A stretch of 33,429 nt of DNA from a virus, in the IMG/VR virus record IMGVR_UViG_3300042899_000082, positions 1 through 33,429 of that record. One strand, written 5' to 3'. Shown in pieces: positions 5,296 to 33,429 of this stretch. Positions within the stretch are counted from its first letter, which is position 1. The number at the start of each line of letters is the position of its first letter. The position numbers were made by a program, and so were the translations under genes. The notes under the pieces are model-generated. The model saw only the letters and a list, made by a program, of their open reading frames with translations, was not told where the DNA came from and did no database searches.

Positions 5296-7163
5296 TGCCT
5301 TATTTCATTACAGACAAATCACCTGATTGTTCAGGTTGGGCAACCGTCAAGGAAGATGGTGAAGTCATCGGTTGCCACACCACGAAGCAGGATGCGATTG
5401 ATCAGATGGTTGCTGTGTCGATTGCTGAAGACATGGAACCTGGTGGTGAGCGTGCATTGCCGGACAACTATCGTCCTGCGTTGGCTTCTGATGTTCCTGA
5501 AGGTCGAGCATGTGGGAACTGCCATTATTACAACGAAGACATGATTCAAGAAGATGGCAGAGATTTGAAGGCGTATTGCATGAAGTGGGATGCGTATGTG
5601 AATGGTGGTTGGTATTGCAACGCTTGGGAATCTGAAGAACACGAAGAAGAAGAAGTCATGGATGATCTAGTGGAAGATGTAGAGGACGATGAGATTCGTC
5701 AAGTGTCGTTGGATGTTCCTGTGTATATTCGTACAGCTGCACGCAAAGGTTTGGACTATTACGGGCAAGGCTTGGCTGGTGACGGTTTGGTGGATCGGAC
5801 TGTGCGTGAAGCACGGGAGATGGCACGTGGCGACATCACAGAAGACAAAGTGATTCGCACGAACGCTTGGGGTGCGCGTCATCTTGTGGACTTGGATGCA
5901 CCAAAGAACTCTGACCCTGATGACAAAGAGTTCCCTGGTGCCGGTGCTGTTGCGTTCTATCTGTGGGGCATCAACCCACTTGACCCTGAACCTGCAATGA
6001 ATTGGTTTATGTCGAAGGCTGAAGCAATCAAAGCTGAACGGGCTGATGCTCCTGCCCCACCGAAAGATCAGATCACGGGATCAGATAAGAATCCTGTTGG
6101 GTCTGCTAAAGCTCCAGCGAGTGGCAAGACGATTGAACTATCAGAAGCCATTGAGACAGGTTTGGCAAACAAAGCCAAAGAACACAACGATGAGGTTGGT
6201 GACAATGCTGGCAAACGTGCGACGGTTGGTATGTTGCGCACAGTGTTCCGTCGAGGTGCTGGGGCGTATTCAACTTCGCATCGTCCAGGTGTGACACGGG
6301 ATCAATGGTCTTATGCACGGGTGAATGCGTTCTTGTATTTGTTGCGCAACGGCAGACCTGAGAATGAAAAATACATTGGCGACAATGATCTGTTGCCGAA
6401 GGCTCATCCGAAGTCATCTAGATCGCTTGGCTCATTTGGTACTAGCATTGGCGACATGGAACAAACTGTTGAAACACGTCGCATCACATCAAATGACTTT
6501 GAACTTCGTGCCGATCCAAAAGGTAACGGGATGTCGTTCACAGGTTATGCAGCTGTGTTTAACTCACCTTCGGAGCCGTTGCCATTCATTGAACGAATCG
6601 CACCAGGCGCATTCTCACGCTCACTCAAATCAAAGAACAATGTGCGCATGTATATGAACCACGATTCAAGCATGCTTCTTGCCACAACCCGTGCGAAAAC
6701 ACTGCGACTATCTGAAGACTCCAAAGGCTTATTCGTTGACGCATCGTTGCCTGATACCTCCATTGGTCGTGACCTGTCGGTCTTGATGCAACGAGGCGAT
6801 GTGAACTCGATGTCGTTTGGATTCACCGTTCCATCTGGTGGAGACATGTGGTCTGATGATGGTCAGTCCCGTGAACTCCGTCAAATCAAACTCTACGAAG
6901 TCAGCGTTGTCACAGGGTTCCCAGCCTATGCAGCCACAACAGCAGCAGTACGATCACTTGATGCCCTTGCTACTCGCACAGGTATTGACGCAGATCAACT
7001 CGCAGCTGCAATCACGAACCTTGAATCAGGTCAAACATTGTCGCAAGATCATGCGATGTTGTTGCGTGAAACTGTTGCCAAACTTGAACCTGTGCAGGAT
7101 TCTGCACCGGCTCGTTTGGGTGTGATGGCGAAGCACCTTGATTTGTTGAAGTCCATCGCCTAA
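5295..7163 (+). CDS. Multidomain prohead protease with N-terminal Cys cluster
   Basis: A 622-residue protein, far longer than a stand-alone HK97-type protease (about 200-230). Residues 1-50 form a small domain with WATVKEDGEVIGCH. Residues 73-111 carry C73-x2-C76-x18-C95-x12-C108 ending GGWYCNAW, closely resembling high-potential iron-sulfur proteins. An acidic linker (112-135) follows. Residues 140-240 are an alpha-helical domain with GARH and LWG motifs, and 280-372 contain the RRGAGA and NDLLPKAHP blocks seen in other phage proteins. The protease domain starts around 412 (SFTGYAAVFN), with His456 and Ser507 (MSFGF) as probable catalytic residues. It would cleave the scaffold part of the capsid protein. 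An internal ATG at 6456 (Met388) could yield a normal-sized protease. Confidence 0.88.
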   Translation: MPYFITDKSPDCSGWATVKEDGEVIGCHTTKQDAIDQMVAVSIAEDMEPGGERALPDNYRPALASDVPEGRACGNCHYYNEDMIQEDGRDLKAYCMKWDAYVNGGWYCNAWESEEHEEEEVMDDLVEDVEDDEIRQVSLDVPVYIRTAARKGLDYYGQGLAGDGLVDRTVREAREMARGDITEDKVIRTNAWGARHLVDLDAPKNSDPDDKEFPGAGAVAFYLWGINPLDPEPAMNWFMSKAEAIKAERADAPAPPKDQITGSDKNPVGSAKAPASGKTIELSEAIETGLANKAKEHNDEVGDNAGKRATVGMLRTVFRRGAGAYSTSHRPGVTRDQWSYARVNAFLYLLRNGRPENEKYIGDNDLLPKAHPKSSRSLGSFGTSIGDMEQTVETRRITSNDFELRADPKGNGMSFTGYAAVFNSPSEPLPFIERIAPGAFSRSLKSKNNVRMYMNHDSSMLLATTRAKTLRLSEDSKGLFVDASLPDTSIGRDLSVLMQRGDVNSMSFGFTVPSGGDMWSDDGQSRELRQIKLYEVSVVTGFPAYAATTAAVRSLDALATRTGIDADQLAAAITNLESGQTLSQDHAMLLRETVAKLEPVQDSAPARLGVMAKHLDLLKSIA

Positions 7164-7290
7164 CATTTGTTCACTGCATCGTTGACGGAGCCGTCAACCG
7201 TGTTGCTGTATGTGGAGCCACATCAGGTTGAGAAGTAGTAACTCCCTGCGTATCCCCAATCCATCAACAATCCGAAAGCAGAAAACAATC
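7164..7290. promoter_or_regulatory. Leader region of the capsid gene with hairpin
   Basis: A 127-base gap before the major capsid gene. It contains a perfect inverted repeat GTTGACGG-AG-CCGTCAAC (7181-7198; realistic stem 7 bp). TTGACG inside it could act as a -35 element, but no good -10 follows. The hairpin may instead protect or start a processed capsid mRNA. An open frame runs through from 7210, but its residues do not look coding. Confidence 0.35.
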
Positions 7291-8578: not shown

Positions 8579-8598
8579 AAGGAGAAGGAAGTGAAGAA
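8579..8598 (+). promoter_or_regulatory. Tandem Shine-Dalgarno sites for two overlapping starts
   Basis: AAGGAG (8579-8584) lies 6 bases before the GTG at 8591, and AAGGAA (8585-8590) lies 7 bases before the ATG at 8598. The two starts are in different frames, so each has its own correctly spaced ribosome binding site. Confidence 0.55.
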
Positions 8599-9904
8599 TG
8601 CTGGTAATAATCCGAAACACAATGGTCGAACTACCACCCCTAGAAGCCGAGATGTTGTTGCATCGGGGAATAGCACACTTGCCCGAAGTGGCAGACCTGC
8701 CGATGCAGACTCGCTACGAATCCTTTGGTATTCCAACGCTCCCTTCGTCCCCACCGGCTACGGTACGCAAACAGCGCAAGCCGTCACAAGGCTCGTCAAA
8801 GAAGGTCACGAAGTAGCAATCCATGCCATGTACGGACTCGAAGGAGTTTCGTCAAATTGGAATGGAATCAAAATGTACCCACGTGGGATGGCACCATATT
8901 CCGATGACGTGATGGTTGCTCATGGAATGGACTGGGCGAATGGCAATCCAAAGTTGCCTTCGTTGTTGATGACTCTGTTTGATGTATGGCCGTTGAAGTC
9001 AAAGTCGTTGGAGATGGTCGCGAACATTGCGTCTTGGGTTCCGATTGACCATGCGCCATGTCCAGCTGATGTCGTTGAGTGGTGCGCTCGTCCAAATGTG
9101 AAACCAATTGCGATGTCTAGGTTTGGTGAGCAGATGTTGAATGATGCCGATGTGGAATGTTTCTATGTTCCTCATGGCATTGAGTCAGTGTTTAACCCTG
9201 ATGCAAAGTTTGTGAATGGCGACAAGACATTCACGGGTCGGCAGTTGATGGGCGATGTTCCTGATGACAAGTTTGTAGTGATGATGAACGCAGCGAACAA
9301 GGGTGCTAGTCCGTCACGCAAATCGTTCGCTGAGAATATGTTGGCATTCGGTATCTTCGCTCAAGATAAACCTGACGCGATCCTGTATCTACATACTGAG
9401 AAGGATGGTGCGATGGGTGGGGTCAATTTGATTCATCTGTTGCATGCGTGTGGGATTCGTGAGGATCAATACAAGATTGTTGATCAGTACGCTTATCGCA
9501 CTGGGTTCCCTCAGCAGGCATTGGCTTCAATGTACGCATCTGCTGATGTGCTGTTGTCTGCGTCTATGGGCGAAGGGTTCGGGTTGGCTGTGATCGAGGC
9601 TCAAGCCTGTGGCACCAGAGTCATCGTCTCGGACTTCACTGCACAGCCTGAGTTGGTTGGGTCTGGGTGGGCTGTGGAGGTGCAACCGTTTTGGGACAAT
9701 GCGCAGCGTTCTTGGTTCTGCACTCCTCAAGTTGGTTCCATTGTGGATGCCCTGAGACACGCCTACGACGCTCCTAGAGGGGTTGATCAGGTGGCTGTGG
9801 ACTTTGCACAGGCATACAACGCAGATCGCGTGTGGGATGAACATTGGAAGCCTGTGATGAAGGGACTTGCTGAATGGTGCCGTGCATCATCATCCCCGTC
9901 CTGA
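8591..9904 (+). CDS. Glycosyltransferase family 4 (GT-B fold)
   Basis: A 437-residue sugar transferase that would move an activated nucleotide sugar onto an acceptor. After a low-complexity N-terminal stretch of about 41 residues, the fold starts with LRILWYSNAPFVPTGYGTQ. The signature GEGFGLAVIEAQACGTRVIVSD is the E-x7-E nucleotide-sugar motif of GT4 enzymes. The GTG start is the only usable one before the domain; the next in-frame ATG lies inside it. The first 226 bases overlap a second plausible frame (8598-8816). It opens a three-gene sugar cassette. Substrate and target (capsid, tail or host surface) are unknown. Confidence 0.85.
   Translation: MKNAGNNPKHNGRTTTPRSRDVVASGNSTLARSGRPADADSLRILWYSNAPFVPTGYGTQTAQAVTRLVKEGHEVAIHAMYGLEGVSSNWNGIKMYPRGMAPYSDDVMVAHGMDWANGNPKLPSLLMTLFDVWPLKSKSLEMVANIASWVPIDHAPCPADVVEWCARPNVKPIAMSRFGEQMLNDADVECFYVPHGIESVFNPDAKFVNGDKTFTGRQLMGDVPDDKFVVMMNAANKGASPSRKSFAENMLAFGIFAQDKPDAILYLHTEKDGAMGGVNLIHLLHACGIREDQYKIVDQYAYRTGFPQQALASMYASADVLLSASMGEGFGLAVIEAQACGTRVIVSDFTAQPELVGSGWAVEVQPFWDNAQRSWFCTPQVGSIVDALRHAYDAPRGVDQVAVDFAQAYNADRVWDEHWKPVMKGLAEWCRASSSPS
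8598..8816 (+). CDS. Small overlapping frame, phage post-capsid type
   Basis: 72 codons in a different frame from the glycosyltransferase that contains them. The N-terminal half (MVELPPLEAEMLLHRGIA) resembles the small proteins often encoded just after the capsid gene in actinophages, which share an E-x-E-x-L-x-x-RG-x-A pattern. The C-terminal half is Ser/Lys/Pro-rich and looks less coding. It has its own Shine-Dalgarno site. Over the same stretch the glycosyltransferase N-terminus looks like low-complexity filler, so this frame may be the older gene. Confidence 0.45.
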   Translation: MLVIIRNTMVELPPLEAEMLLHRGIAHLPEVADLPMQTRYESFGIPTLPSSPPATVRKQRKPSQGSSKKVTK

Positions 9905-10539
9905 ACAGGTATGACTTACTAGAACGGGCGATCCGCTCGATTGACTATCCCGTCGAGCAGCTCATCATCGTTGACAACGGCGATGGGTATGACGCTGACC
10001 TGTTGGCTTGGACTGCGCCTTGGCAACACATTCAAAACTGGTACCTGTGGAGGATGCCAACGAACCTTGGTGTGGCACCTTCATGGAATCTTGGTATCAA
10101 AGCAACACCTCGGGCTGACGGCTGGATTCTGTTGAACTCTGATGCGTTCTTTGAACCAGGTCAACTAGAAGTGTTCCACAAGGACTGTGAACCTGATGCA
10201 ATTACCTTGACGACTGGGATGCCTGGTTGGTCGTGTGCGTGGGTGGGTGCTGGTGTGGTTGAGCGTGTTGGGTTGTTCTCGGAATGTTATGTGCCTGCAT
10301 ATTTTGAGGACAACGATTTTGAGGAACGTGCGCGTCGGATCAATGTTGAGGTGAAGGTTTCGCAGGCAAGGATTGTGCATGACAATTCTTCGACGATTAG
10401 GTCGGATGAATCTTTGGCTGGGAAGAACAGCAAGAGTTTCCAATCAAATCAGGAGTTGCATCAGTTGCGTTGGCAGTCTGGGGTTCCTGATGCTGGTCAT
10501 TGGGATTTGAAGCGTCGAAGGGACTTGGGGTGGGATTAG
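9874..10539 (+). CDS. Glycosyltransferase family 2-like (GT-A fold)
   Basis: A 221-residue enzyme starting directly with IIIPVLNRYDLLERAIRSI and VEQLIIVDNGDG, the nucleotide-binding strand of GT2/GT-A transferases. LGVAPSWNLGI and LLNSDAFFEPG (the DxD-like metal region) follow at about 65-95, then a YFEDNDFEERAR acid-rich block typical of these enzymes. It overlaps the end of the GT4 gene by 31 bases, which suggests coupled translation and a shared glycan. It is short, so it probably lacks extra acceptor-binding domains. Confidence 0.83.
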   Translation: MVPCIIIPVLNRYDLLERAIRSIDYPVEQLIIVDNGDGYDADLLAWTAPWQHIQNWYLWRMPTNLGVAPSWNLGIKATPRADGWILLNSDAFFEPGQLEVFHKDCEPDAITLTTGMPGWSCAWVGAGVVERVGLFSECYVPAYFEDNDFEERARRINVEVKVSQARIVHDNSSTIRSDESLAGKNSKSFQSNQELHQLRWQSGVPDAGHWDLKRRRDLGWD

Positions 10540-13192: not shown

Positions 13193-13204
13193 TATTCGTG
13201 CATG
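13190..13204 (+). promoter_or_regulatory. TAGTAT-N6-ATG start signal
   Basis: The TAG stop of the frameshifted chaperone forms TAGTAT, followed by TCGTGC and the next ATG. This is a -10-like hexamer with a spacing that would suit leaderless transcription. No Shine-Dalgarno is present. It closely matches the signal at 14689-14703. Confidence 0.35.
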
Positions 13205-13912
13205 GCAGTTATTAACCCAGGCACAAGTCGTGCAGGAACATTCCGTTCAAACATTCAGAATGACTCACCAGTCTCGGCACCGGTGCAGATTCTTGGTATC
13301 ACCGAGTATCTTCGTGCTGCTTCAAAGTCATATCCTGAGTTCAACAAGTATGCCCGTATCGCATCAAAACAAGTTGCCAACTTGATAGTCGTTGCAGCCA
13401 AGTTTGAAGCAGCTTCAGTGACACGTAATCGTCAGGCTATGGAAGTGATGAAAGGTATGGTCGCAACCAGTGACCGTGTACCAACTATCAAACTGTTGGA
13501 AAACTCTGTATTCCAATCTCGTTCACGCAAGTATGGTTCTTCATACAACATCAAAACCCGTCGAAGGATAAGGCGAGCAGTGACCAGAGGTGACGTGTTC
13601 TTCGGTGCTGAGTTCGGTGGAGGCTCACATGGCTCAGGCAATCTAACTTCGGCTGGGGCTAAGTCTCGCGCTGGGACTGAGATGTTCCGTAGGGGTGGGG
13701 GTAGGACAACCCAGTTTCTTCGGCATCGTGGGCAGTCTGGTTATTTCTTTTGGCCTGCTGTTCGCAAACATAAGGGTGATATTGCTGAAGCCTATTTGGG
13801 AGCGATTCAAAAGGTCTTGGATGGCTTGGCAGCTAAGGGAGCAGCGCAAGCGATAGAACGTGAGACGGTTGGTTTCGGCCCTCTGTTGAGTGATTCTATG
13901 AAAGTTATTTAG
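13202..13912 (+). CDS. Putative HK97 gp10-like neck/tail protein
   Basis: A 236-residue basic protein. The N-terminal third is helical (YLRAASKSYPEFNKYARIASKQVANLIVVAA). Residues about 110-185 are Arg/Gly-rich (RRRIRRAVTRGDVFFGAEFGGG). The C-terminal QSGYFFWPAVRKHKGDIAEAYLGAIQKVLD resembles the final segment of gp10-like tail-completion proteins. It lies between the chaperone and tape-measure genes instead of next to the adaptor, as gp10-like genes usually do. The family call is tentative. Confidence 0.5.
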   Translation: MAVINPGTSRAGTFRSNIQNDSPVSAPVQILGITEYLRAASKSYPEFNKYARIASKQVANLIVVAAKFEAASVTRNRQAMEVMKGMVATSDRVPTIKLLENSVFQSRSRKYGSSYNIKTRRRIRRAVTRGDVFFGAEFGGGSHGSGNLTSAGAKSRAGTEMFRRGGGRTTQFLRHRGQSGYFFWPAVRKHKGDIAEAYLGAIQKVLDGLAAKGAAQAIERETVGFGPLLSDSMKVI

Positions 13913-13962
13913 ATAGTTGACTTTGGCTGTGGTTTCGCTACCCTGTAGATAGGGAGGCGTTC

Positions 13963-14691
13963 ATGGTTGTCTATTTTGATTCGGTTAAGTCTGTCCAGCC
14001 GAAGCCGTTCGCATCGAATTGGGATGACCTCAAAGAGCGTTTGATGCATCATGAGGAGAATGCCCACAAGTCTGATGGTGCGTTGTGGTCGCCTGTTGAG
14101 TATCACCAAGGTAGGACTAGAGGCAACACTGCTGTTCGGTTCATTGAAGCGTTGGTGGTTGACATGGACGGTGAGTCGTTTGCCAATGCCAATCTTGATG
14201 GGTTTGAGTATCTTGCCTATTCCACATATTCGCATCGACTAGATGATCCTCACTATCACTTGGTTCTGCCGATGGCTGAGCGTGTGCCAGCAGGATTGTG
14301 GCGAGCGATATGGGGTGAACTGCATGAACGCCTCAACCTTCAAGGCGACCCTGCGACCAAAGACCCTGCTCGTATCTTCTATCTTCCACAACATGCACCA
14401 GATCAACCTTGGGAGTTCCACGAACAATCAGGCAGATTCATTGACACAAACTTTGAATACGAACCTCTACCAAACCCAACACCTGCGTCACCACGCCAAT
14501 CGGCTCAACCTCGACGTAGGCGCACTGTTCGTGTTGAGATGGATAATGCTTGGTGGGATGCTGCAAAACCCATGACACAGTATTCACACCTTGAAGGTCA
14601 TGCGTTGTGGAAAACAATGGCAGATGATTTCCGTGTGATGGTTGCCGAGTACCGAGAAGCCGTGCGCTTGGCAAGTCAGGATGTCATCTAG
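13963..14691 (+). CDS. Stand-alone primase-like (AEP-type) protein in tail module
   Basis: A 242-residue protein that does not look structural. EALVVDMDG (Asp67, Asp69) fits the hhhDhD first motif of archaeo-eukaryotic primases. YSTYSHRLDDPHYHLVLPMAERVPAGLW (residues 86-113, His97/His99) and KDPARIFYLP (133-142) match the order seen in RepB-like and VirE-associated primase domains, where T/S-x-SH, P-x-y-h-LPL and D-x-s-R-x-yLP blocks follow each other. The C-terminal third is an Arg-rich linker and a helix. A strong AGGGAGG precedes the ATG. The neighbours are tail genes, which is unusual for a replication-type protein. It differs in family from the PrimPol domain at 31464. Confidence 0.6.
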   Translation: MVVYFDSVKSVQPKPFASNWDDLKERLMHHEENAHKSDGALWSPVEYHQGRTRGNTAVRFIEALVVDMDGESFANANLDGFEYLAYSTYSHRLDDPHYHLVLPMAERVPAGLWRAIWGELHERLNLQGDPATKDPARIFYLPQHAPDQPWEFHEQSGRFIDTNFEYEPLPNPTPASPRQSAQPRRRRTVRVEMDNAWWDAAKPMTQYSHLEGHALWKTMADDFRVMVAEYREAVRLASQDVI

Positions 14692-14703
14692 AATTGTTGC
14701 ATG
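14689..14703 (+). promoter_or_regulatory. TAGAAT-N6-ATG start signal
   Basis: The TAG stop of the primase-like gene forms TAGAAT, followed by TGTTGC and the tape-measure ATG. TTGGCA at 14668-14673 resembles a -35 box, with a short 15-base spacer. There is no Shine-Dalgarno. Confidence 0.4.
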
Positions 14704-16875
14704 GCTGGCGAACGCACCTTTGTTGTCAAGTTCATTTCCGATGTTCAAGGTGCGCTTAAAGGAATTAAAAGGGTTGGCGATGATCTAGGTGGGATGGGGA
14801 GCAAACTTGCTTCTATATTGCCATCATTTAAGACTGTTGCTATTGCAGGCACGGCAGCCTTTGGTGCGGTTGCAGCGTCATCGTTCAAGTTGGTTCAGAT
14901 GGCTTCCAATTTGGAAGAATCACAATCCAAGGTCAACACCGTGTTCGGTGATTCAGCCGGTATCATCAACGAGTTTGCTGATACTTCTGCTCGCACGTTC
15001 GGTATTACTAAGCAAGCTGCATTGGAAGCCACTGGAACATTCGGTGCATTGATTTCAGCATTCGGTCTTGGTCAAGGTCAAGCATCAAATATGTCGGTCA
15101 CATTGGTTCAATTAGCAGCCGACTTGGCTTCGTTTAATAATACGGATATTGAAAGTGCGATTGGTGCATTGCGTTCAGGTTTGTCTGGTGAAACTGAACC
15201 ATTGAAGAAGTATGGCGTTGTTCTATCTGATGTTCTCCTCAAAGAAAAAGCATTGGAGATGGGATTATATGACGGCAAAGGTGCATTGGATGTAAAGTCA
15301 AAAGTTCAAGCGTCTTATGCGTTGATCTTGGAACAAACAGCAATTCAACAAGGTGATGTTGCTCGAACCTCGGAAGGGTTCGCCAACCAGATGAAGTTCT
15401 TGAAGGCTTCGTTGAGTGATGCTGCAACCGAACTTGGCACCATTCTGTTGCCATACTTCAAAACTTTTGTCTCGTTCCTCAACGACAACATCATTCCTGG
15501 TGTGATGGCATTTGCTGAAACTCTTGGTGAGAAGGGCGTTGGTGCTGCGATGGTTGCTGGTGTAGCAGCAATGGAGAACTTTGGAATCACTGCGGTGAAT
15601 GTCCTTGAAGGTGCCTATGTTGCACTGCTTAACTTCACCCACGATCTATCCAAGACTGTGCGTATTTTGGCTGATGCTGCTGCACTTGGCTTCGGTTTAC
15701 AAGGAAACATTGTTGGTGCAGGTAAGTCATTGGCTGTTGCTGTTGCAATGTCTAAAGTGCAGGATGCAACGAATACGGCGTTGGCTGGTGCTGGCGCAAT
15801 GTTCGATGGTTTCCGTGCCAAGGTTTATGCTGCGCAGTTGCAGTTGGCTCAGATGAATCGTCCAGCAGGTGGTAGTGCTGATGCAATGGAGCGTCTTGCC
15901 GGATCAGTCAAGAAGATCGTTCCAGTGATGACTGAGGCTGAGAAGGCTGCTGCTGCGTTGGCTGCTGGGCTTGGTGCCGGTGGTGGTGGTGGTGTGGCTA
16001 AGACTGTTAAAAACGCAACTGAAAGGTTCAAGGAATACACGGATGCGTTGAAGTCAACCAACTCTGCACAAAAGGCGTTTGATAAAGCTCAGAAGGAGTC
16101 AATCAAATCTGGACAATCTTTGACTAAAGCCAATACTGATTTGGCTACAGCTCAGGCTGCGTTGGATAAGGCTGTTGCTGGGTATGGTGCCGATTCTCCA
16201 CAGGCTAAGAAGGCTGCGAAAGATTTAGAGCAGGCTCAGCGTGGGTTGGAACGTGCAGGATACAACGTGGAGGGTTCGTTGTTTGCGATCAAGGATGCTG
16301 AGGAGGCGTTGAAGAAGGTTCGTGCTGATCCCGAGTCAACACCCCAAGCGATTCGTGAGGCTGAGATTGCGTTGGCTGAGGCGAAGTTGTCGAGTGCTGA
16401 TGCGATTGATGCGCAGACTGAGGCGACTGATGGTTTGACTAAGGCAACTAGTTTGTTGAGTGATGCTGTTAATGGTGCGTCTATTGGTTCCGATATTTAC
16501 AAAACTTTATCGGATGCCTTGACTGATGCGAAGAAGAAACAGGCTGATGCTAGTGAAGCTGTGGCTGATGCGATTGACCGTGAAGCTGAAGCATTAGAAC
16601 GGTATAGCGATGCGTTTGATAAGGCTGGTCAGTTGGCTATCAAGTATCCAAAGATTTCTGCTGCAAATCCGATGTCTCCGTTTGCCAGTGGTATCCCTGC
16701 AACCGTGACAGGTAATGCGATGTCTTCGTTGCGTCCTGAGCAGATGTCGGGTGGGACGACTGTGGTTGTGCAGGCTGGTCTTGTTTCTTCGCCGGATGAG
16801 ATTGCTGAGCAGATTAGTGATTTGATGAGTCGTCGTGCGCGTCTTAATGGTGGCGATCTAACGGCGTTCTTCTAA
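14701..16875 (+). CDS. Tape measure protein
   Basis: A 724-residue protein, the longest reading frame and third-largest by family importance after head genes. It sets tail length and acts during DNA entry. Residues about 35-70 include an apolar stretch (ILPSFKTVAIAGTAAFGAVAAS). SAFGLGQGQASNMSVTLVQLAADLASFNNTDIESAIGALRSGLSGETEPLKKYGV (from about 120) is the classic conserved block of TP901-type tape measures. A Gly-rich hinge near 425 is followed by long Ala/Lys/Glu coiled coils (450-640). At about 1.5 angstrom per residue, a tail near 0.1 micrometre is expected. No lytic domain is visible. Confidence 0.95.
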   Translation: MAGERTFVVKFISDVQGALKGIKRVGDDLGGMGSKLASILPSFKTVAIAGTAAFGAVAASSFKLVQMASNLEESQSKVNTVFGDSAGIINEFADTSARTFGITKQAALEATGTFGALISAFGLGQGQASNMSVTLVQLAADLASFNNTDIESAIGALRSGLSGETEPLKKYGVVLSDVLLKEKALEMGLYDGKGALDVKSKVQASYALILEQTAIQQGDVARTSEGFANQMKFLKASLSDAATELGTILLPYFKTFVSFLNDNIIPGVMAFAETLGEKGVGAAMVAGVAAMENFGITAVNVLEGAYVALLNFTHDLSKTVRILADAAALGFGLQGNIVGAGKSLAVAVAMSKVQDATNTALAGAGAMFDGFRAKVYAAQLQLAQMNRPAGGSADAMERLAGSVKKIVPVMTEAEKAAAALAAGLGAGGGGGVAKTVKNATERFKEYTDALKSTNSAQKAFDKAQKESIKSGQSLTKANTDLATAQAALDKAVAGYGADSPQAKKAAKDLEQAQRGLERAGYNVEGSLFAIKDAEEALKKVRADPESTPQAIREAEIALAEAKLSSADAIDAQTEATDGLTKATSLLSDAVNGASIGSDIYKTLSDALTDAKKKQADASEAVADAIDREAEALERYSDAFDKAGQLAIKYPKISAANPMSPFASGIPATVTGNAMSSLRPEQMSGGTTVVVQAGLVSSPDEIAEQISDLMSRRARLNGGDLTAFF

Positions 16876-25305: not shown

Positions 25306-25578
25306 ATGGAACCAATGACAGATAGAAACAAGGCAGGCTGGATCATCGCATTCACACTGATTGGATGGATGTTCTTCTTCCTTCCAGGAGGTGAAGACAT
25401 CAACCAGCCACCACAAGGAGAACCTACGCAACGGGCATGGACAATTTGGATCATCATTAACGTGATCCTTCTAGTCAAAGTTCACCTGTTGATTAGTCGT
25501 GAGCATCGTGCAGCTAAACGATTCAATCGTGCGATGCAACGGGCAAGAAAACTGCACCCAACGTGGCGCAATGACTGA
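25306..25578 (+). CDS. Two-helix membrane protein
   Basis: A 90-residue protein with membrane segments WIIAFTLIGWMFFFLPG (about 12-28) and AWTIWIIINVILLVKVHLLI (about 44-63), a short polar loop between, and a very basic C-terminus (REHRAAKRFNRAMQRARK). The function is unknown. It is the first gene of a run that continues with the WhiB regulator, which it overlaps by 8 bases. Strong AAAGGAGGG lies upstream. Confidence 0.65.
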   Translation: MEPMTDRNKAGWIIAFTLIGWMFFFLPGGEDINQPPQGEPTQRAWTIWIIINVILLVKVHLLISREHRAAKRFNRAMQRARKLHPTWRND

Positions 25579-25870
25579 GGTTCATGTTGTTGAAAGTTGG
25601 TCTGAAGGCGCACATGTGTTCAGACCGACACAACCACAATGGATGATCCAAGCCAAATGCAAAGGTCAAACAGAACTATTCTTCAACGAAGGCAACAGCA
25701 TCTATGTTCGTGCAGCCAAAGTTATTTGTGGCACCTGCCCTGTTCGACGTGAATGTTTAGCATTCGCCATGAAGAACGACGACCAAGGGATTTGGGCTGG
25801 TACCTCAACGAACGAACGTGAACGCATCAGGCGTTCGTTACGCAAGAACATTAGAGTCTTGACATCATGA
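25571..25870 (+). CDS. whiB: WhiB-family transcriptional regulator
   Basis: A 99-residue iron-sulfur protein. The four cluster ligands are Cys30, Cys53, Cys56 and Cys62 (AKC...ICGTCPVRREC), in the family spacing C-x2-C-x5-C. GIWAGTS (73-79) is the G-I/V-W-G/A-G beta turn and the tail is basic (RERIRRSLRKNIR). WhiB-like proteins are confined to Actinobacteria and their phages, where they bind the principal sigma factor and redirect transcription. The phage may use it to reprogram the host or switch its own genes. It overlaps both neighbours. Confidence 0.95.
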   Translation: MTEVHVVESWSEGAHVFRPTQPQWMIQAKCKGQTELFFNEGNSIYVRAAKVICGTCPVRRECLAFAMKNDDQGIWAGTSTNERERIRRSLRKNIRVLTS

Positions 25871-31463: not shown

Positions 31464-33429
31464 ATGAACACATTAGATACAGCACTCGCCTATACACGAT
31501 TAGGTATAAGAGTGGTACCAATCAAACCTGGACACAAATACCCTGGAATTGACAACTGGCAGAACCTAGCTACCGATGATACCGATGTGGTCACATCATG
31601 GTGGGCTGGTGACTACAAGACCTATGGCATCGGGATCGCTACAGGACGCACGAAGCATGGACAGATATTCGTGGTCGATGTTGACGACCGTGAAGAGTAT
31701 CGAGGCTCAGACACGTTGCATGACTTGGAGCAACGGTATGGGGCGTTACCTGAAACGGTCACAGCGATCACCGGCACAGGAGGTCAACACCTCTACTTCT
31801 ATTCACCTGTTGAGGTGCGCAATGATGCTGGGTCAAGGCTTGGGGTGGGTTTAGACATCAGGGGTGAGGGTGGTCAGGTGTTAGCTGCACCGACACTGCA
31901 TCCGAACGGCAGACAATACCAGTGGGTTGACGGGATGTCACCACTCGATAGGAAGCCATCAGACGCACCACAGTGGCTCCTGACGCTTCTCACCACCCAA
32001 CCTGCGATGATCAAACCCCAAGGCACCACAGACCTGTTCTTAGCTGACCCAACAACACCATCGGCTCGATACTGTGCGCAAACCACATGGGAGCAACTCC
32101 TGATCCCAGACGGCTGGACATTGGCAAAGACTGATCGTCATGGTGAACAGCATTGGACTCGACCAGGTAAAGACACCCGTGACGGCATCTCAGCCACCAT
32201 TGGTCACAACGGCAACGACGCACTCATTGTCTTCACCTCCACCATCCCTTGGCTACCCGAAGGCGGATACAACCGATTCGGATACATGGCAGCACGTGAC
32301 CACAACGGTGACTGGAAACAAGCAGCCAAACAATTCTTAGCCCACAACACCACCCCAGCCGACACCACCACCATCACACCCGATGAAATGCTCAGCATGC
32401 TTGTCGACTGGAAAACATTCTGGACACAAGAACACGTCGTCGAAGACTGGATAGCCAAACCACTCATCGCACGCGCACGACAAACAGCACTCTTCGCCGG
32501 AGCAAAGACAGGCAAAAGTTGGCTCACACTCAACGTCGTTGCAGCCCTAGCCACAGGCAAACCAATACTCGGACACCCACCCCAAGCCCAAACCCACTGC
32601 CTCTACCTCGACTATGAGATGGTAGAAGCAGACCTATACGAACGCCTAGAACAATTCGGCTACACAGAAGAAGACGACCTATCCCACCTTCACTATGCGC
32701 TCATCCCATCCCTACCCCCACTCAACACAGCTGAAGGAGCCTCAGCGATCATGCGACTGTGTGAGTTGACTAAGGCTGAGGTTGTTGTGATTGACACCAC
32801 AGGACGCGCCATCGAAGGTGAAGAGAACTCTGCTGACTCATACCGTGAGTTCGCTAGAACCACAGGGTTAGCCCTCAAACGCGCTGGTATCGCCTGTGTA
32901 CGCACAGACCACGCAGGCAAAGACGGAGGCAAGAAACACGGACAACGAGGCTCATCAGCCAAGAACGACGACGTGGACATCGTGTACCGACTAGACAAGA
33001 CAGACGACGGACTCATGCTCGTCAGAACCCACACACGCATCAGCTGGGTACCAGAGAAGATCGACCTCATCGTCGAAGACATAGACGACATCACCACCAT
33101 CCGACAACGCACCAGAGCAACCAAAGGCTGGACAGCCCAAGAGATAGCCCTCGCCAAACACCTCGACACATTAGGCATCCCAAAGAACGCTGGAGTCAAC
33201 GAAACACAACGCATCGCCAAAGAACTTGGTGCCAAACTCGGACGCAAATCTGTACTCAGCAGAGCCATCCAATGTCGCCAACTACCCACCCCAGACCCCC
33301 TAGAAACGGGAACCACCCTCGGGAACCACCCTCTAGACCCTATGGTGGCTATGGGAACCACACACCGTACCGATAGGTACGGGGTGGTACCAGCCCAAAA
33401 CCTAGAACAATTTGACCTAGACCAAAACT
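31464..33429 (+). CDS. Primase-polymerase/helicase replication protein (5' part)
   Basis: A replication protein of 656 residues once joined to 1-138. Residues 1-160 are a PrimPol (AEP) domain: NTLDTALAYTRLGIRVVPI start, VVDVDD (Asp72, Asp74), GTGGQHLYF (His109) and GLDIRG (Asp131). Residues about 335-600 are a RecA-like/RepA helicase: LFAGAKTGKSW (Walker A 346-352), LYLDYEM and VVVIDTTGR (Walker B, about 440-447), then DHAGKDGGKKHGQRGSSAKNDD. It would start and unwind DNA for phage replication. The C-terminal 60 residues look poorly conserved and their DNA holds the repeats at the contig ends. Confidence 0.93.
   Translation, partial: MNTLDTALAYTRLGIRVVPIKPGHKYPGIDNWQNLATDDTDVVTSWWAGDYKTYGIGIATGRTKHGQIFVVDVDDREEYRGSDTLHDLEQRYGALPETVTAITGTGGQHLYFYSPVEVRNDAGSRLGVGLDIRGEGGQVLAAPTLHPNGRQYQWVDGMSPLDRKPSDAPQWLLTLLTTQPAMIKPQGTTDLFLADPTTPSARYCAQTTWEQLLIPDGWTLAKTDRHGEQHWTRPGKDTRDGISATIGHNGNDALIVFTSTIPWLPEGGYNRFGYMAARDHNGDWKQAAKQFLAHNTTPADTTTITPDEMLSMLVDWKTFWTQEHVVEDWIAKPLIARARQTALFAGAKTGKSWLTLNVVAALATGKPILGHPPQAQTHCLYLDYEMVEADLYERLEQFGYTEEDDLSHLHYALIPSLPPLNTAEGASAIMRLCELTKAEVVVIDTTGRAIEGEENSADSYREFARTTGLALKRAGIACVRTDHAGKDGGKKHGQRGSSAKNDDVDIVYRLDKTDDGLMLVRTHTRISWVPEKIDLIVEDIDDITTIRQRTRATKGWTAQEIALAKHLDTLGIPKNAGVNETQRIAKELGAKLGRKSVLSRAIQCRQLPTPDPLETGTTLGNHPLDPMVAMGTTHRTDRYGVVPAQNLEQFDLDQN
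33297..33429. repeat. Terminal redundancy, right copy
   Basis: This is the right-hand copy of the 133-base end overlap. The two mismatches with the left copy fall in adjacent codons of the replication gene: CTA GAA here and CTC CAA at the left end. The effect is one silent change and Glu to Gln. They could be strain variation or low-quality contig-end bases. Confidence 0.93.

Follow-up and report, generated by a model that had tools for sequence, protein, structure and literature searches.

A single-domain AEP encoded in a phage tail module has the look of an acquired enzyme for DNA priming or gap filling

What does a primase-like protein do among the tail genes of a small phage whose replication module encodes another AEP? 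The question is raised by a gene lying directly before the tape-measure gene in a virus genome from IMG/VR (record IMGVR_UViG_3300042899_000082), of which we analyzed a stretch of 33,429 nucleotides, hereafter the window. The first-pass annotation, made from the sequence alone, had described the product as a stand-alone AEP-type protein on the basis of Asp67/Asp69 and the blocks YSTYSH, PHYHLVLP, and KDPARIFYLP, every one of which we found as claimed. It had also located the gene downstream of a gp10-like ORF and upstream of the tape-measure gene (Table 1), and this order is constant in the relatives wherever it is visible. The name “gp10-like” is a label of that annotation, since no PHROG or Pfam family matched this ORF. 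Here, we suggest that the tail-module protein, called the tail AEP below, is more likely an acquired enzyme that primes DNA or fills gaps than a part of the tail.

Table 1. Features of the tail AEP gene, its flanks, and the second AEP, in window coordinates
Feature	Position	Strand	Basis or remark
gp10-like ORF, left flank of the insertion	13202..13912	+	Adjoins the AEP gene upstream
-35-like hexamer TTGACT of the AEP gene's candidate promoter	13917..13922	+	Conserved motif, 16-bp spacing
-10-like hexamer TACCCT of the AEP gene's candidate promoter	13939..13944	+	TANNNT; conserved motif
Shine-Dalgarno GGGAGG of the AEP gene	13952..13957	+	Sequence; GGGAGG or GGAGGGG kept in relatives
Stand-alone AEP-superfamily protein, 242 aa	13963..14691	+	ATG start, TAG stop; ORF call, PHROG profiles, predicted structure
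AEP motif I, Asp67-Met-Asp69	14161..14169	+	Invariant in the 140-sequence alignment; 187/189 in the tail clade
His91 ... His97-Tyr-His99 block, motif II region	14233..14259	+	Kept in all 189 tail-clade sequences
Asp129-x-x-Thr-Lys-Asp-x-x-Arg137, probable motif III region	14347..14373	+	Asp129 invariant in the 140-row alignment, Arg137 nearly; block invariant within the tail clade
Variable C-terminal part (residues 166-242), made up of a basic linker and a long helix at 212-239	14458..14688	+	Model; poorly conserved; no family match
TAGAAT that overlaps the AEP stop codon and ends 6 nt ahead of the tape-measure ATG	14689..14694	+	Conserved in both clades
Tape-measure gene, right flank of the insertion	14701..16875	+	PHROG tape-measure profiles
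Replication-module PrimPol: Pfam Prim-Pol (PF09250) AEP domain and AAA_25 ATPase	31464..33429	+	Prim-Pol E 9e-41; cut by the window end

Identity and active site of the tail AEP

The gene is a genuine ORF with an AEP-superfamily product and not a chance reading frame, since the single protein matches the PHROG primase families 9765, 256, and 2135 (E-values of 2e-15, 1e-8, and 8e-5), an IMG/VR search with it gave at least 280 relatives, the order of its neighbors is constant, and the median dN/dS across the AEP domain is about 0.15. Searches of Pfam, NCBIfam, PADLOC, and PDB sequences with the protein alone returned no match, and no Pfam family, Prim-Pol (PF09250) included, was hit up to an E-value of 10. 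A model built on an alignment of 140 diverse relatives (18-97% identity) reached a pLDDT of 86, with residues 1-165 mostly above 90, whereas an earlier one built from only 21 close relatives (pLDDT 33) was left unused. The model contains the RRM-like core of AEPs, whose absence would have counted against the original reading, and its leading solved structural matches are AEPs throughout. The best of them is the AEP domain of the cyanophage S-2L PrimPol (6ZP9; Foldseek E 7e-5; Z 9.4 and rmsd 3.4 over 136 aligned residues, yet with 10% identity), followed by RepB' (Z 7.0), the archaeal PriS (Z 6.9), and CAPP, Prim-PolC, and LigD (about 6). In a viral library, the first match is a member of the same family from an uncultured Caudovirales phage (A0A6J5S580, 81% identity over 233 columns), deposited as an uncharacterized protein without function, and the next ones are largely VapE-type and other primase-helicases. 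We also weighed PHYH as an HUH endonuclease motif but rejected this reading, since the Asp motifs and the primase profiles fit an AEP and HUH Reps turn up among the Foldseek matches only as weak ones.

The tail AEP is a bare catalytic domain followed by a short tail. We could recognize in it no PriCT, zinc-binding, helix-bundle, or helicase domain. The VapE/VirE-type primase-helicases (e.g., those of Javan405, Emery, and phiCDKH02) have an N-terminal AEP domain with the same core, YST.SH, and Asp motifs, but the tail AEP lacks their VapE ATPase (PF05272) and has His99 in place of an Arg. The S-2L PrimPol, in turn, carries PriCT-2 and helicase domains and is the sole polymerase of its phage (PMC8065100). 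The organization closest to that of the tail AEP was found among stand-alone AEPs of large phages (about 305-330 aa, PHROG 9765), including those of Phage C48C1 (WJE87912.1), Vibrio phage V6Aob (XRQ87663.1), and our IMG/VR loci L132-L251. These proteins consist of one AEP domain without a helicase fusion, match the tail AEP with HMM E-values down to 2e-19, and share with it the pattern SP..Y....TR.N, DxD, YST.S, and D..TKD..R..Y.P. They differ from it by being about 70 aa longer, by Arg99 and mostly Ser91, and by an identity of about 20-27%; furthermore, where their surroundings were checked, they lie mostly in replication modules, unlike the tail AEP. In a tree, the tail clade forms a single group beside the stand-alone AEPs, with a support of 89 and a long stem. 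The sets compared comprised, beyond the hits obtained with the protein itself, a sister clade at about 58-62% identity, 120 stand-alone AEP loci of large phages, and 120 VapE-type loci; the mixed alignment of distant AEPs had no stretch conserved enough to serve as a scan pattern.

The acidic residues expected of a catalytic AEP are in place. R53, D67, D69, Y86, S90, and D129 are invariant over the 140 aligned sequences (18-97% identity), and motif I, of the form hhhDhD/E, reads ALVVDMD. The two tail-clade sequences that depart from Asp67/Asp69 (L045 and L421) come from the same contig and read VVEDEEE instead of VVDMDGE, probably through a local sequence error; we do not take this change in one contig as evidence. 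A loss of Asp67/Asp69 in homologues, which would likewise have told against the original reading, was otherwise not seen. The other tail-clade residues H91, H97, H99, D129, T132, K133, and D134 are kept in all 189 sequences, about 107 of which were retrieved by a pattern that fixed residues 87-103 and left the Asp residues free. Asp129 is the probable acidic residue of motif III, although the residue before it is mostly Gly and not a large hydrophobic one; Asp129 and Arg137 were fixed in the retrieval pattern of L132-L251 and free in that of the VapE-type set. Motif II, usually written sxH, is less clear, with His99 (in PHYH) and His91 (in YSTYSH) as candidates, neither of which is strictly sxH. 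The expectation that the His residues would be conserved was borne out within the tail clade and failed outside it, where position 99 is Arg in 125 of the 125 other AEPs compared and position 91 is Ser in most stand-alone relatives. Motif II is known to be family specific, with Arg or Lys replacing the His in the DR0530-like family (Kazlauskas et al., PMC5862659), from which, by this published description, His99 sets the tail clade apart. Hence, it is a His that distinguishes the tail clade from its nearest relatives.

Insertion into the tail module

The position of the gene could reflect a function in the tail or simply the place where it landed. In every relative with the respective side visible, the gp10-like gene lies upstream and the tape-measure gene downstream, and the gap to the latter is exactly 9 bp in the 61 closest relatives in which that side can be seen. 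A scan for the motif of the head-tail connector gave 112 usable contigs. Among the 40 whose connector is at least 79% identical, the AEP gene is present in all 20 that reach far enough; among the 72 with an identity of at most 63%, it is present in none (0/72), and 35 of these extend at least 4 kb past the connector. We inspected eight of these AEP-less contigs and found the gp10-like gene in contact with the tape-measure gene or separated from it by no more than about 10 bp. The same is seen in a cultured phage, the Pontimonas phage phiPsal1, whose head-tail module is syntenic with that of the window (40% identity for the capsid protein, 44% for the neck protein): its gp017 and tape-measure gene share one base, with no AEP gene between them. 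Given its presence in 20/20 close and 0/72 distant relatives, with abutting flanks in the latter, the simplest reading is that the ancestor of the AEP-carrying clade acquired the gene.

Like a moron, the cassette stands between two genes that adjoin each other in relatives, but an own terminator, another hallmark of morons, is missing: the tape-measure ATG follows the AEP stop by 9 nt, with no terminator-like site. We conclude that the AEP cassette was probably inserted once, in a moron-like manner, and then kept. The collection genome_contigs held no close relatives of the tail AEP, so that no prophage copy was found there, and loosening the pattern retrieved a single distant relative. We found no cultured carrier of the gene either, phiPsal1, the nearest cultured comparison, representing the empty site. 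This phage infects Pontimonas salivibrio and is the nearest cultured relative that we found; the window itself encodes a WhiB transcription factor (25499-25867, Pfam E 5e-17), which points to an actinobacterial host. Two glycosyltransferase genes (8591-10536) lie between the capsid and connector genes, in relatives and in phiPsal1 as well.

Candidate transcription signals of the AEP gene and of its neighbors

The gene had been described as co-expressed with the tail genes, and hence late, and as having a strong ribosome binding site of its own. The latter is present (Table 1); the former has become doubtful. The sequence TTGA[CT][TA]-N16-TANNNT occurs in 125 of 126 distinct upstream sequences from two clades, always with a spacing of 16 bp; since TTGA and TA...T were preset by the search expression, the evidence is that 125 of 126 pass with exactly this spacing. 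The motif ends 16-20 nt before the AEP ATG and is followed by the strong Shine-Dalgarno sequence. Its -10-like part varies among relatives (TACCCT, TACTGT, TAACCT, TATCCT, TAGCCT, TAGGGT). We consider it a candidate sigma-A-like promoter, conserved and belonging to the AEP gene. A scan with the Escherichia coli sigma-70 consensus did not list it because TACCCT is too far from TATAAT, and the case rests on conservation. The only other match to the motif on the window's plus strand (7138-7166, spacers of 16-17 bp) lies upstream of the major capsid gene. A hairpin hiding the Shine-Dalgarno sequence (CCCT/AGGG) was also considered and dropped, as the variants TACTGT and TAACCT leave AGGG unchanged.

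The tape-measure gene has a different start signal. Four of the five TAGAAT sequences on the plus strand sit 6-9 nt before late-gene starts (binomial p about 1e-7); these four (11175, 14689, 18123, and 18345) precede the connector gene, the tape-measure gene, and two further late genes, mostly without a Shine-Dalgarno sequence. TAGAAT looks like a candidate -10 element of leaderless late transcripts. With its own promoter-like motif and Shine-Dalgarno sequence, as opposed to the TAGAAT of the tape-measure gene, the AEP gene should probably not be counted as just one of the late tail genes. One could argue instead that it heads a distal tail operon and is not a moron, the promoter serving the tape-measure and later genes and the AEP being carried along as a late gene. 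The 9-nt distance speaks for this, and since no terminator precedes the tape-measure gene, the AEP promoter could also drive the tail genes. Yet the tape-measure gene, like other late genes, is immediately preceded by TAGAAT, and the AEP-less relatives, where the flanking genes overlap, need no such promoter. We regard this alternative as the most serious one, and as doubtful.

Possible functions beside a second AEP

As the first-pass annotation had indicated, the replication module encodes an AEP of another family, a Prim-Pol/AAA_25 protein; we saw no other replicase candidate in the genome. Both AEPs, with a PrimPol that looks intact, are present in eight long contigs of the clade (G001-G003, G009, G011, G012, G021, and G022); one of them, of 31.6 kb (G003), has no ORF recognized as another polymerase in a comparison with the window's genes only. 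Two outgroup contigs (G016 and G017) match neither the AEP profile nor the window's PrimPol. The joint presence of the two AEPs rests on one evolutionary contrast. The head-tail module of these outgroups is the same and their replication region different. In phiPsal1, RepO and a replisome organizer are annotated, without a primase-polymerase.

The account that explains most of these results, and to which we give about an even chance as a whole, is that of a catalytically competent single-domain AEP that entered in a moron-like manner, is transcribed by the host RNA polymerase, and works inside the cell as a primer maker or gap filler assisting the PrimPol. A moron-like cassette would have entered the lineage, the tail position being its landing site and not its function. 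The host RNA polymerase would then transcribe the gene from its own promoter, independently of the late tail genes, and the protein would stay in the infected cell, where it would add nucleotides to phage DNA, making primers or filling gaps in support of the Prim-Pol/AAA_25 protein. According to published work, AEPs generally rely on an accessory domain to start a primer (PMC5862659, PMC8065100, PMC12205980). Because we recognize no such domain in the tail AEP, we doubt that it could prime de novo by itself, and gap filling, or priming jointly with the PrimPol, seems more likely.

A moron could also be directed at the host or related to superinfection, acting on host nucleic acid, nucleotides, or defense and not on phage replication. 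The insertion between genes that abut in relatives, with a promoter sequence and a Shine-Dalgarno sequence of its own, would suit such a role. However, defense-related models gave no match to the AEP, we noticed no integrase, which makes lysogenic conversion unlikely, and the stand-alone relatives with checked surroundings are mostly in replication modules. Several of them (about 310 aa) adjoin genes for DNA polymerase, UvsX/UvsY, or a DnaB-like helicase; not all do, as L242 lies beside a glucosyltransferase gene. We therefore favor a role in DNA replication and hold host-directed roles to be unlikely. The loci L132-L251 make up a large family of these stand-alone proteins (about 310 aa), several encoded beside T4-like DNA polymerase genes; the members tested had no Pfam or NCBIfam match. 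They are possibly the primases of their phages.

Could the protein instead travel with the virion? Conjugation transfers plasmid primases such as TraC1 and SogL, and phage N4 injects its virion RNA polymerase. Precedents for injection have been reviewed, and AEP primases are among the proteins deployed with the DNA of mobile elements (PMC5512222). The tail AEP could accordingly be packaged in the lumen of the head or tail and enter the cell along with the DNA, which it would prime or repair on arrival. The support for injection is positional, namely, the location directly before the tape-measure gene in every relative with that side visible. Against it, the promoter-like signal is unlike that of the tail neighbor, no packaging signal came to notice, the protein has a single domain and is not a multidomain polyvalent protein, and relatives with the same tail module have no AEP. 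Virion delivery is thus quite improbable, and we see little chance for its more specific form, in which the protein, expressed from the tail operon, is packaged next to the tape-measure protein and injected to start or repair DNA synthesis before the phage's PrimPol is made. Finally, the missing accessory domains and the fixed position in the tail operon could suggest an AEP fold exapted as a noncatalytic nucleic-acid-binding or tail-assembly factor, but this is very improbable, given catalytic Asp residues kept clade-wide while about 40% of the other residues vary, a low dN/dS, and tail modules that are complete without the AEP.

With these results, a family deposited as uncharacterized gains a probable enzyme class. 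The history of the tail AEP offers a clean gain event, with filled and empty sites and one empty site in a cultured phage. Phages of about 32-34 kb carry two AEPs of different families, one of which is a bare catalytic domain outside the replication module, apparently with its own promoter. This makes the system a test of whether an AEP core without an accessory domain primes or fills gaps, and of whether two AEPs divide primer making and polymerization between them.
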